Shown piece by piece: positions 60,899-63,759 of a DNA stretch of 64,000 bases (the stretch's first letter is position 1; every line of letters begins with the position of its first letter). Under the pieces are notes generated by a model. It did not search any database. It worked only from the letters and a program-made list of their open reading frames with translations, and was not told the origin of the DNA. The position numbers were made by a program, and so were the translations under genes. The stretch comes from an uncultured Verrucomicrobiota bacterium (lineage in GTDB: Bacteria; Verrucomicrobiota; Verrucomicrobiia; Limisphaerales; UBA9464). The stretch covers positions 124,001 to 188,000 of the forward strand of contig CAIVQH010000060.1 of NCBI GenBank assembly GCA_903907995.1, written 5' to 3'.

Positions 60899-60925
60899 TA
60901 AAGTCCTAGGGTTCGCTGCCGATGA
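60899..60925 (+). promoter_or_regulatory. Sigma-28-type promoter of flagellin 1
   Basis: TAAAGTCC, an 11-base spacer, then GCCGATGA. The consensus is TAAAGTTT-N11-GCCGATAA, so 13 of 16 positions agree at the ideal spacing. The flagellin leader begins about 20 bases downstream. Confidence 0.8.
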
Positions 60926-60944
60926 AGGTGGTGTCAGTCAGGCG

Positions 60945-61063
60945 GCCGGCAGCCAGAAATAGCCGGCGGGAAAACGGTGGACGCCCATTTGAAGGTCCAT
61001 CCACGGCAAGGACGCCGTGCAACAAACAATGCCCCGCAAGGGGCAAACTCACGGATAGAGTTT
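60945..61063 (+). promoter_or_regulatory. Flagellin leader RNA, copy 1
   Basis: Four helices in order: H1 GCCGGC/GCCGGC (60945-60950, 60962-60967, 11-nt loop); H2 GGTGGAC/GTCCATC (60976-60982, 60995-61001); H3 CACGGC/GCCGTG (61002-61007, 61014-61019) with loop AAGGAC; H4 TGCCCC/GGGGCA (61030-61035, 61040-61045) with loop GCAA. Then comes ACTCACGGATAGAG as ribosome-binding region. The GGA in the H3 loop and the GGA before the start match CsrA-type sites. Confidence 0.7.
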
Positions 61064-61862
61064 ATGGTCATCAATACTAACGGCTCAAAACGGTGCTCGC
61101 TACCTCGCGGATTCGAGCGCAATGCTCAGCAAATCCCTCGGTCGTCTGTCTTCCGGCTCGAAGCTCACTTCACCGCAAGATGATGCCGCCGGTCTTGCAG
61201 TTTCCGTTCGGTTCGACGCACAGGTCAGCCGGATCGGTGCGGCCATCTCCAATCTGGGCAATGCCACTTCATTCAACCAGACGCAGGATGGTTATCTTAG
61301 CAAAGTCGGCAAGGCGCTCGATCGCATGAGCGAACTCAGCGTCCTCTCGCAGGATGTCACCAAGTCTGACAGCGATCGGTCCCTCTATAACGCCGAATTC
61401 ACGCAGCTCGGATCCTATGTCAATGACATCGCGACCAAGCAGTTCAACGGAGTCAACCTGTTTGACGGCACCGCCCTGAACGTGACGACGGACGGCGACG
61501 GCTCCACCGTGGCCACCTCGGGAGTCAATCTCGCGGCCTCGGCCTACACCACGGCCACGGGTTCGACCGTGGACACCGCCGCGAATGCGGCCACCGCCCT
61601 GACCAACGTCAAGGCGGCCATCGATCAGCTTTCAACGGATCGCGCCAACCTGGGGGCGAACTTGTCGGTGATGGGTTCCTACAGCGCGCAGCTGAGCGTG
61701 CTGAGCGACAACCTCAGCCAGGCCAACAGCCGGATCAAGGATGTCGATGTCGCGCAGGAAAGCACGAACTTCGCCAAGGCGAACATCCTGGTCCAGGCAG
61801 ACACCGCGATGCTGGCCCAGGCGAATTCCTCGTCGCAGTCGGTGATGAAGCTGATGCAGTAA
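61064..61862 (+). CDS. Flagellin 1, N terminus frameshifted
   Basis: Short flagellin, about 265 residues if repaired. From the ATG at 61064 (MVINTNGS) the frame is lost at an A-run (61087-61090); dropping one A gives NGARYLADSSAMLSKSLGRL, which lines up with flagellin 2. The open part from the ATG at 61122 (246 residues) has the D0/D1 core (RLSSGSKLTSPQDDAAGLAV, FNQTQDGYLSKVGKALDRMS, GSYSAQLSVLSDNLSQANSR, STNFAKANILVQADTAMLAQ) and almost no variable D2/D3 region. Without the first ~20 residues it should not polymerise normally. Either a sequencing or assembly error in the A-run, or a real lesion. The promoter, leader and terminator are all intact. Confidence 0.85.
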
Positions 61863-61882
61863 TCTGGTCAGAACACAGCTCG

Positions 61883-61916
61883 GGCCCGGATGGTGTCAAA
61901 GCCGTCCGGGCCTTTT
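61883..61916 (+). terminator. Rho-independent terminator of flagellin 1
   Basis: GGCCCGGATGG pairs with CCGTCCGGGCC (61883-61893, 61902-61912), followed by TTTT. Confidence 0.85.
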
Positions 61917-61990
61917 CATTTCATATCCAGGTCGAGTCGGATGCGTCTTCGCATGTCTGACCATTTTAGTCCCGGACGGGCACAAATAAC

Positions 61991-62017
61991 TCAAGTCTCC
62001 ACGGCAGCTGCCGATAT
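61991..62017 (+). promoter_or_regulatory. Sigma-28-type promoter of the orphan leader
   Basis: TCAAGTCT, 11-base spacer, GCCGATAT. The -10 half matches GCCGATAA in seven of eight bases. It is followed by a flagellin-type leader but no recognisable flagellin. Confidence 0.65.
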
Positions 62018-62035
62018 CAGATGGACTAGAAAAGG

Positions 62036-62154
62036 TGCCGGCCACCGAAAACACCGGCAGGGGAACGCGGTGAGCATCCCGGTCAGACACGCTCACTCAC
62101 GGCAAGGAAGCCGTGGCAGCCGCCCGCAAGGGCCAACCACTCACGGATCGAGTC
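62036..62154 (+). promoter_or_regulatory. Flagellin leader RNA, orphan copy
   Basis: Same helix order as the two flagellin leaders: H1 TGCCGG/CCGGCA (62036-62041, 62054-62059), H2 GGTGAGC/GCTCACT, H3 CACGGC/GCCGTG (62098-62103, 62110-62115) with loop AAGGAA, H4 GCCC/GGGC with loop GCAA, and the start region CTCACGGATCGAG before an ATG at 62155. Confidence 0.65.
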
Positions 62155-62604
62155 ATGGTCACCACCACCAGCGTCGTATCGCCACGCAGCGAGCGACATT
62201 CCGCCGAATCGGGCACCTCGCCCGGCTGGCTCCCCCAGTCTGCCCCGCCCCGGCGCGGCTCATCCCGGTCGGAAGTGAAACTTTCCGCGGTGCCACCGCG
62301 GCCGGCCGGCAATTCTTTGGATTGCTTCGCCGACATTGTCGGGTGTCCCCAAGTCGTCACCGCCTTGCCTGGTCCAGGCAGCGAGCCTGCCGTTGTCAGA
62401 TCATCCGGGAGACGAATGCGCGGATGCGGCAGCGACAGCCGTCCGCGACCTGTCGGCCGCCCCGGGAATGCGGAACCCATGCGCCCACCGGAACCAGGCG
62501 GGACGCGTCGCGAGAGGATGCCAGTGACGCCCCCCTTCTGTATCATATCCGGACCGCTCCTTCGCCGCGGGTCCCGGGCCAACCGGAGGGGGCACCATGT
62601 CTGA
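62155..62604 (+). CDS. Open frame behind the orphan flagellin leader, no family
   Basis: 149 codons starting MVTTTSVVSPRS at the position where flagellin would start (flagellin 2 begins MVINTNTSAMNG). The rest is arginine-, proline- and serine-rich and shows no flagellin core or membrane segment. It may be a chance frame over a deleted third flagellin. The 5' signals are convincing, the protein is not. Confidence 0.2.
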   Translation: MVTTTSVVSPRSERHSAESGTSPGWLPQSAPPRRGSSRSEVKLSAVPPRPAGNSLDCFADIVGCPQVVTALPGPGSEPAVVRSSGRRMRGCGSDSRPRPVGRPGNAEPMRPPEPGGTRRERMPVTPPFCIISGPLLRRGSRANRRGHHV

Positions 62605-62795
62605 TCCGTCCCTGAGGCGTTTTCCGCGGCGCGGCCTGCGTCGCCGGCCCATCGCAAAATCGCACGAATCTCTCGGAAAGCATCGCCCCGACTGCACCCG
62701 GCCGGCACCGGCTGGCGGGACCGGAAAGCCCACGGAGGCGGCCACATTCTGTGTGCGGGTCGAAAGATGTGAAATTACGGACATCTTCATATATC
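62605..62795. other. Intergenic region, no gene recognised
   Basis: GC-rich spacer ending in an AT-rich stretch before the flagellin 2 promoter. Nothing recognisable. Confidence 0.4.
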
Positions 62796-62799
62796 TATA

Positions 62800-62826
62800 T
62801 AAAGAATCGGACGAATGTTCCGATAT
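62800..62826 (+). promoter_or_regulatory. Sigma-28-type promoter of flagellin 2
   Basis: TAAAGAAT, 11-base spacer, TCCGATAT. The AT-rich sequence just upstream (TATATCTATA) could act as an UP element. Confidence 0.75.
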
Positions 62827-62837
62827 AAGATTTGGCG

Positions 62838-62955
62838 GCCGGCGGCCATAAAAGGCCGGCAGGGATCAGGGTGATGCCCGGGAAAGTTCACCGCGTGGCA
62901 GGGATGCCACGGCAACAATGCCCCCAATGGGGGTGACTCAAGGATAGGAGTCCAT
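62838..62955 (+). promoter_or_regulatory. Flagellin leader RNA, copy 2
   Basis: H1 GCCGGC/GCCGGC (62838-62843, 62855-62860, 11-nt loop), H2 GGTGA/TCACC, H3 CGTGGC/GCCACG (62894-62899, 62906-62911) with loop AGGGAT, H4 CCCCC/GGGGG (62921-62925, 62929-62933). The ribosome-binding region CAAGGATAGGAG (62939-62950) contains both the Shine-Dalgarno and an AAGGA motif. Confidence 0.7.
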
Positions 62956-63759
62956 ATGGTAATCAACACTAACACATCAGCAATGAACGGCGCGCGGATG
63001 CTCGCCGACTCGTCAGCGGCGCTCAGCAAGTCCCTCGCGCGATTGTCCTCCGGCTCGAAGATCACTTCGCCGGCGGATGACGCCGCGGGTCTCGCCGTGT
63101 CGGTCCGGTTCGACGCTCAGATCAGCCGCATCGGTGCGGCCAGCTCCAACATCGGCAACGCCATCTCGTTCAACCAGACGCAGGATGGCTACATGGGCAA
63201 GGTCAGCAACGCGCTCAATCGCATGAGCGAGCTGTCGGTCCTTTCCCAGGACGTGACCAAGTCGGATTCGGATCGCGCCCTGTACAACGCGGAGTTCACC
63301 CAGCTCGGCTCGTACATCAACGACACGGCGACCAAGCAGTTCAACGGGGTCAACCTGTTCGACGGCACGGCGCTCAATGTGACCACTGACAGCGAAGGCA
63401 ACACCCTGGCCACCACTGGCGTCAACCTGGCGGCGAGCGCCTACACCACGGCGACCGGTTCCACGATCGACACCGCGGCCAATGCGGCCACCGCCCTGAC
63501 CAACGTCAAGGCGGCCATTGACCAGCTCTCCAAGGACCGCGCCAACCTTGGTGCGAACATCTCCGTGCTGGGCAGCTACAATGACCAGCTGTCGGTGCTC
63601 AAGGACAACCTGAGCTCGGCCAACAGCCGCATCAAGGATGTCGATGTCGCCACCGAGAGCACCAACTTCGCCAAGGCGAACATCCTGGTCCAGGCCGGCA
63701 CCTCGATGCTCGCGCAGGCGAATTCGTCCTCGCAGTCGGTGCTGAAGCTGCTGCAGTAA
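62956..63759 (+). CDS. Flagellin 2
   Basis: 267 residues, the complete partner of flagellin 1. MVINTNTSAMNGARMLADSS is the D0 start, and RLSSGSKITSPADDAAGLAV with FDAQISRIGAASSNIGNAIS follow. The C-terminal D1/D0 half is SYNDQLSVLKDNLSSANSRI, STNFAKANILVQAGTSMLAQ and ANSSSQSVLKLLQ. The middle is only ~100 residues (FNGVNLFDGTALNVTTDSEG), so the filament surface domain is minimal. The main filament protein, exported by the flagellar type III apparatus. The two copies are nearly identical apart from the 5' lesion, suggesting recent tandem duplication. Confidence 0.96.
   Translation: MVINTNTSAMNGARMLADSSAALSKSLARLSSGSKITSPADDAAGLAVSVRFDAQISRIGAASSNIGNAISFNQTQDGYMGKVSNALNRMSELSVLSQDVTKSDSDRALYNAEFTQLGSYINDTATKQFNGVNLFDGTALNVTTDSEGNTLATTGVNLAASAYTTATGSTIDTAANAATALTNVKAAIDQLSKDRANLGANISVLGSYNDQLSVLKDNLSSANSRIKDVDVATESTNFAKANILVQAGTSMLAQANSSSQSVLKLLQ

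Follow-up and report, generated by a model that had tools for sequence, protein, structure and literature searches.

In Campylobacter jejuni, CsrA and FliW control the flagellin mRNA flaA, which is transcribed from a sigma-28 promoter and whose 5' untranslated region is a 45-nt leader of two stem-loops only, each with ANGGA in its loop and the second lying on the ribosome-binding site (PMC4894983). This layout was established by footprinting and mutation, the stems show compensatory changes, and the leader can reportedly titrate CsrA (PMC4894983). In Bacillus subtilis, where fliW and csrA are adjacent, CsrA is described as occluding the Shine-Dalgarno sequence of the flagellin gene hag and FliW as relieving the block; binding of FliW to the hag leader has also been reported, the reasons for it being as yet unknown (PMC6529632). 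The Escherichia coli glgC leader is described as having a high-affinity upstream GGA hairpin and a Shine-Dalgarno site, with one CsrA dimer bridging the two (PMC7652899). Here we describe a leader RNA that occurs three times in the final 3 kb of a 64,000-nucleotide stretch of DNA (the window; positions 124001 to 188000 of contig 60) from the 5.1-Mb, 95.67% complete draft genome of an uncultured Verrucomicrobiota bacterium of the order Limisphaerales. Comparison across genomes shows a class of structured flagellin-mRNA leaders, conserved over the order and very probably controlled by CsrA and FliW.

The end of the window holds flagellin 1, a flagellin-free stretch, flagellin 2, and the beginning of fliD, the rest of which lies past the window edge. 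Each flagellin gene is preceded by a sigma-28-type promoter with a leader some 122 bases long, and the stretch between the two genes contains another such pair, giving cassettes at 60899-61063, 61990-62154, and 62800-62955, and all three leaders are preceded by promoter-like elements ending in CCGAT. The middle copy is here called the orphan leader, and G003 is a related genome used for comparison. The features are as follows.

60899-60925, + strand: sigma-28-type promoter of leader 1 (TAAAG ... GCCGATGA), from its sequence pattern.
60941-61063, + strand: leader 1, comprising pseudoknot 1 (60941-60967), pseudoknot 2 (60968-61001), P3, P4, and P5; covariance-model match of 118.1 bits, pair counts, and 122 of 123 bases the same in G003.
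61002-61019, + strand: P3 of leader 1, loop AAGGAC, candidate CsrA site 1; GGA in 98 and ANGGA in 96 of 101 aligned rows.
61046-61062, + strand: P5 of leader 1, loop ACGGATA on the ribosome-binding site, candidate CsrA site 2; ANGGA in 101 of 101 aligned rows.
61064-61862, + strand: flagellin 1, frame broken near codon 7 and open from 61122; Pfam Flagellin_N and Flagellin_C on 61122-61859, five gap columns against G003.
61990-62017, + strand: promoter of the orphan leader, sigma-28 type (CTCAAGT ... GCCGATAT); G003 retains the two elements with a different spacer between them.
62034-62214, + strand: orphan leader 2 (to 62154) and 60 further conserved bases with no flagellin after them, a candidate stand-alone RNA; covariance-model match of 57.0 bits and conservation against G003.
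62098-62115, + strand: P3 of the orphan leader, loop AAGGAA; sequence and covariance-model match.
62139-62153, + strand: P5 of the orphan leader, loop ACGGATC; sequence and covariance-model match.
62800-62827, + strand: sigma-28-type promoter of leader 3, from its sequence pattern.
62834-62955, + strand: leader 3, with pseudoknots, P3 (62894-62911, loop AGGGAT), P4, and P5 (62935-62952, loop AAGGATAG); covariance-model match of 98.3 bits and 122 of 122 bases the same in G003.
62956-63759, + strand: flagellin 2, intact, 267 amino acids; Pfam Flagellin_N 6.8e-29 and Flagellin_C 7.8e-24.

As read here, the leader consists of pseudoknot 1 (helix X, GGC/GCC, with helix P1), pseudoknot 2 (helix S1, GGGG/CCCC, with helix P2), and then P3, P4, and P5, the last having a conserved stem of its own, ACUC/GAGU, and a loop that contains ANGGA. 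A first-pass annotation made from the window alone had reported stems in which pairing is kept while bases change, and the DNA agrees with it: the arms of its third hairpin, our P3, are CACGGC/GCCGTG in copy 1 and the orphan and CGTGGC/GCCACG in the last copy, those of its second hairpin read GGTGGAC/GTCCATC, GGTGAGC/GCTCACT, and GGTGA/TCACC, G-U pairs included, the P3 loops are AAGGAC, AAGGAA, and AGGGAT, and a second GGA lies in a hairpin over the ribosome-binding region. Its first and second hairpins, taken as plain stem-loops, are real helices, but each belongs to an H-type pseudoknot, and two further helices had been missed.

Relatives of flagellin were found in 29 of 58 genomes, the window's own counted, and the leader is present on 41 of the 73 flagellin starts that have at least 150 upstream bases; most of the remaining starts lack it, and many of the leaderless ones lie directly downstream of csrA by our reading of the gene order. 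Leaderless starts were excluded from alignments A2 and A4, and from the 20 canonical leaders of A4 a covariance model of 129 positions (R2) was built. Alignment A5 contains 110 R2-fitted matches from the window and 94 of 197 loci, with 101 distinct rows, two of which, L191 and L027, repeat other rows in truncated form; alignment A6, in which the 3' arm of pseudoknot 2 was misplaced, was excluded from the counts. All but two of the distinct A5 rows (99/101) lie upstream of a flagellin gene, 91 by pattern and 8 by reading the translations, the other two being L191, at a contig end, and the orphan leader of the window.

Standard pairs fill 93.3% of the 3558 pair cells of A5, compared with 82.8% in shuffles and 41 to 48% when partners are slid, and double-change cells number 442 compared with 115 in shuffles, with at least one double change at 30 of 36 pairs. 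The covariance model fitted five of the seven helices, leaving X and S1, for which 89.1% of 688 cells pair (83.7% in shuffles, 37 to 71% slid) and 50 cells show double changes (21 in shuffles); clear exchanges of pairs are C-G to U-A in X (13 rows) and G-C to A-U in S1 (21 rows). Among the 20 canonical leaders, 86.6% of 686 cells pair compared with 80.4% in shuffles, and single-sequence folding of the window copies is modestly better than shuffles (z of -2.67 for leader 1, -0.55 for the orphan, and -2.01 for leader 3). Judged from these alignments, all seven helices covary. The search of Verrucomicrobiota genomes with a covariance model that the first-pass annotation had proposed returned homologous leaders upstream of flagellin genes, with compensatory changes in every helix.

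Both downstream loops carry candidate CsrA sites. The loop of P3 has six bases in 92 of 101 rows and contains GGA in 98 (one row is truncated before P3) and ANGGA in 96, the base at N being A in 33, T in 32, G in 25, and C in 8, while P5 has ANGGA in every row with T (41), C (36), A (22), or G (2) at N. From GGA to GGA, P3 and P5 are separated by 32 to 47 bases (median, 38; 98 rows). The CsrA target consensus from systematic evolution of ligands by exponential enrichment (SELEX) is reported to be RUACARGGAUGU, with mostly six-base loops, and a CsrA dimer to bridge sites 10 to 63 nt apart (PMC7652899); P3 resembles this consensus and its six-base loops, and the spacer of the leader falls inside the bridging range. 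The class shows every sequence feature for which we tested: a sigma-28-type promoter, flagellin downstream, two ANGGA loops, and compensatory stems. Genus g3 leaders (e.g., L034 and L029) have an extra hairpin, CCC-AAGGAC-GGG, in the third loop of pseudoknot 2, which makes a further ANGGA loop.

By analogy with the flaA leader, where two ANGGA loops are likewise present and the second lies on the ribosome-binding site, and with the hag leader, the leader would be expected to work in the same way. The sigma-28-type promoter would start an RNA with two H-type pseudoknots in its 5' part and, behind them, P3 with its ANGGA loop, the spacer hairpin P4, and P5 with ANGGA on the ribosome-binding site. 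Most likely, a CsrA dimer would bind P3, span about 38 bases to P5, and block ribosomes, and FliW would remove CsrA once flagellin is exported, so that flagellin would be made only when the hook is complete. We infer CsrA binding, repression, relief by FliW, and a stabilizing or spacing role for the pseudoknots, which may also hold or time the way the RNA folds, shield its 5' end, or dock a different factor. The glgC leader is likened to this arrangement in its upstream hairpin and bridged sites, but it serves another gene, and its lower site is a lower-affinity Shine-Dalgarno region that the cited part of the source does not describe as a hairpin (PMC7652899). In contrast to the C. jejuni leader, the leaders described here measure about 122 nt, add two pseudoknots and a spacer hairpin, belong to a different phylum, and include a copy without a flagellin gene; no pseudoknot domain is mentioned for hag in the cited part of PMC6529632.

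Matches to R2 occur in 143 of 320 genomes of the order and 59 of 118 genera at an E value of ≤0.01, and in 108 of the 320 at ≤1e-8. A phylum-wide R2 search of 387 genomes gave convincing matches in the window's own genome only; four weak matches elsewhere were judged to be chance, none being upstream of flagellin. Within the genomes sampled, the full form of the leader is, by these model searches, confined to the order. A sequence-only model (R1), which included coding DNA, recovered the three cassettes and seven weak matches in the own genome (E values of 0.04 to 0.59). Rfam 15 returned nothing at gathering score or at an E value of ≤0.1 for the window leaders and 20 of 259 loci, 19 of them leader bearing; matches to M23 and CRISPR-repeat families at a lax threshold were far under gathering score and were rejected. 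The first-pass annotation missed both pseudoknots and the constraint on the orphan leader. Among the matches listed in openly licensed PMC literature, none deals with a flagellin leader in Verrucomicrobiota or with a pseudoknot in any flagellin leader. G166 to G169 have 9 to 12 leader matches per genome (E value of ≤0.01, weak ones counted), suggesting very many leader-bearing flagellin genes.

The hairpins extend to more divergent families. At 30 divergent loci of the order, a P3-type hairpin is present at 28 and a P5-type hairpin at 23 by rule, with P5 present but beyond the limits of the rule at L222, L224, and L227; the P5 stem is often wholly different (AGACAA/UUGUCU or GACAA/UUGUC), and P4 is often gone. 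Flagellin follows 28 of these loci (25 by pattern and 3 by reading), the others being L208, at a contig end, and L207, which has none. Beyond the order, 18 of 23 flagellin starts (28 loci less L244 and L250 to L253, whose starts are incomplete or uncertain) have a P3-type hairpin, compared with 5% in shuffles. Of 87 control genes, four have a P3-type hairpin, one a P5-type hairpin, and none both.

CsrA matches were found in 134 and FliW matches in 133 of the 320 genomes of the order. Among the 108 genomes with a strong leader match (E value of ≤1e-8), 99 have CsrA and 100 have FliW, and among the 143 with a match at ≤0.01, the counts are 112 and 113; CsrA was matched in 35 of the 212 genomes without a strong leader.

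Several observations weigh against CsrA-FliW control. GGA is missing from the P3 loop in 2 of 100 P3-containing rows, and for X and S1, two of five measures are no better than in shuffles (double-change pairs, 3 versus 3.7; pair types, 10 versus 9.8). Outside the order, a P5-type hairpin precedes only 5 of the 23 flagellins and both hairpins only 4 (shuffles, 2% and 0.1%). Both hairpins are present on 35 of the 41 leader-bearing starts, a figure that is not independent because the starts were selected partly by these hairpins, and on only 1 of 32 other flagellin starts of related genomes. csrA occurs without any leader match in 22 genomes, and 9 of the 108 strong leader genomes have no csrA match, of which six are less than 90% complete and three (G000, G274, and G279) are not. 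Since leader, csrA, and fliW all track flagella, their co-occurrence is not independent and amounts to consistency rather than proof. Finally, the window's own draft genome gave no csrA match and no fliW match, and flgL was not found there in a search that had no positive control.

The first-pass annotation had named the lack of a csrA homologue as an outcome that would refute its proposal, and a literal lack is what the search of the own genome returned. We set this aside as a refutation of the idea because comparison with G003 shows a missing 6-kb block and not a lineage without the system. In G003 the gene order is flgK, flgL, several opposite-strand genes, fliW, csrA, and flagellin. Its CsrA (L094:9092-9364) matches the Pfam CsrA family and nine distinct CsrA sequences of solved structure, among them 5dmb, a FliW-CsrA complex, and the neighbor of its csrA is FliW. 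The own genome lacks exactly 6.0 kb relative to G003, a gap that opens at the end of flgK and closes inside that flagellin. Two bases overlap where its sides meet, and the flanks are 95 to 97% identical in DNA where aligned; the gap may be a real loss or an assembly fault. At the junction, flgK and the flagellin tail are fused in different frames (contig 60, ~392577; L093). In Epsilonproteobacteria, fliW is not next to csrA according to the cited part of PMC4894983, whereas in G003 fliW, csrA, and the further flagellin are neighbors.

That the leaders of the own genome are decaying remains of a lost motility system is a possibility to be taken seriously, if not the one we favor. It would account for the missing csrA, fliW, and flgL, for the flgK junction, and for flagellin 1, which has five bases fewer than in G003 near codon 7 behind a nearly unchanged leader 1. 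Against decay, the leaders are 98 to 100% and flagellin 2 is 97% identical to those of G003, the gap and the frameshift could be faults of a draft assembly, and loss in one genome does not compete with CsrA control of the class as a whole. With the regulators seemingly missing, the leaders of this genome are probably deregulated relics, or else the assembly is faulty there; CsrA-FliW control may have been lost, and we do not claim CsrA control in this genome. For the leader class, such control is the likely function, strongly supported by the comparison of ANGGA loops, spacing, stems, and csrA/fliW co-occurrence; it is at the own genome, with no csrA or fliW match, that the original proposal falters.

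Two further explanations concern the class itself. Tandem pseudoknots could constitute an aptamer, making the leader mainly a small-molecule riboswitch that couples flagellin synthesis to cell state, with CsrA secondary or absent. The pseudoknots do covary across the order, and a two-pseudoknot descriptor beat all 12 shuffles in 29 of 39 usable cases among the 73 flagellin starts within the order and in 19 of 24 usable cases among 25 divergent leaders. Outside the order, it did so in only 2 of 12 usable cases (19 in total), and in another order of the class a descriptor for pseudoknot 2 before a P3-type hairpin succeeded in 9 of 14 leaders at P values of <0.05 and in none of the other five, the near-duplicate L257 having been dropped and the sequences being related, so that a combined P value is not a true probability. 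Ligand pockets usually contain near-invariant unpaired bases, whereas identity at the unpaired positions of the pseudoknot domain is at most 93% (100 rows), which makes such a pocket less likely; a riboswitch would also leave the ANGGA loops unexplained, and no Rfam family matches. We consider it improbable. Slightly less credible still is that the leader is a mere stability or translation-start element of a very abundant mRNA, with the GGA of P5 serving as Shine-Dalgarno sequence and that of P3 being structural. In its favor, a cell needs much flagellin mRNA, stem-loops and pseudoknots at the 5' end are able to shield an mRNA, and the GGA of P5 does overlap the ribosome-binding site. However, a purely structural loop would probably not conserve A-N-GGA, N being free, through changes of its stems, P3 is not at the ribosome-binding site, and hairpins at the start site would presumably lower translation without a regulator. 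CsrA-FliW control is by far the more probable reading of the class.

The orphan leader is conserved in its own right. The three window leaders differ from those of G003 by 1 of 123, 2 of 121, and 0 of 122 bases, while the flagellin genes differ by 3% and the intergenic stretches by 12 to 15%. Identity of the orphan extends to 62214, with 2 differences in 181 bases compared with 104 in 693 flanking bases (15.0%; binomial P value of 9e-11), and the first 28 changes past 62214 fall 9, 9, and 10 on the codon positions, so that no reading frame explains the conservation. By this comparison of two species, constraint on the orphan leader equals that on the working leaders, and its flanks are far less conserved. 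It has two GGA hairpins and no flagellin gene, occurs in two of eight genomes of the genus, and may function as a stand-alone RNA, perhaps one that titrates CsrA. The titration reported for the C. jejuni flaA leader (PMC4894983) makes such a sponge role plausible by analogy. Like the CsrB and RsmZ sponge RNAs as described, the orphan is an RNA with GGA hairpins and no flagellin gene; unlike them, it has only two such hairpins and derives from an mRNA leader, and its function is putative. L207 (G169) likewise contains, at ~1501-1607, a leader with both GGA hairpins, followed by an ATG and a stop two codons later and by no flagellin.

Flagellin control of this kind is already known; what is new is the pseudoknot domain and the leader copy without a flagellin gene. 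A two-input device, in which the pseudoknots form a docking or sensing domain (for FliW, for example) and the orphan is a sigma-28-driven, CsrA-titrating RNA that times flagellar assembly, is conceivable but speculative, and we would not expect it to hold in full. Through a conserved RNA of exact design, the CsrA-FliW control of flagellin that was established in Bacillus and Campylobacter would extend to Verrucomicrobiota, and the widely conserved pseudoknot domain and the flagellin-free copy make direct predictions for the bench. The covariance model allows leaders and their losses to be tracked across a poorly cultured phylum.

The promoter pattern precedes 88 of 100 aligned leaders, compared with 0.7% of shuffles. 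After the promoter and upstream of the leader, 51 of 100 A5 sequences carry a short NGUC-loop-GAC hairpin, compared with 1.2% of shuffles; by a narrower, mainly GNRA, pattern, this promoter-proximal hairpin is found in 36 of the 100.

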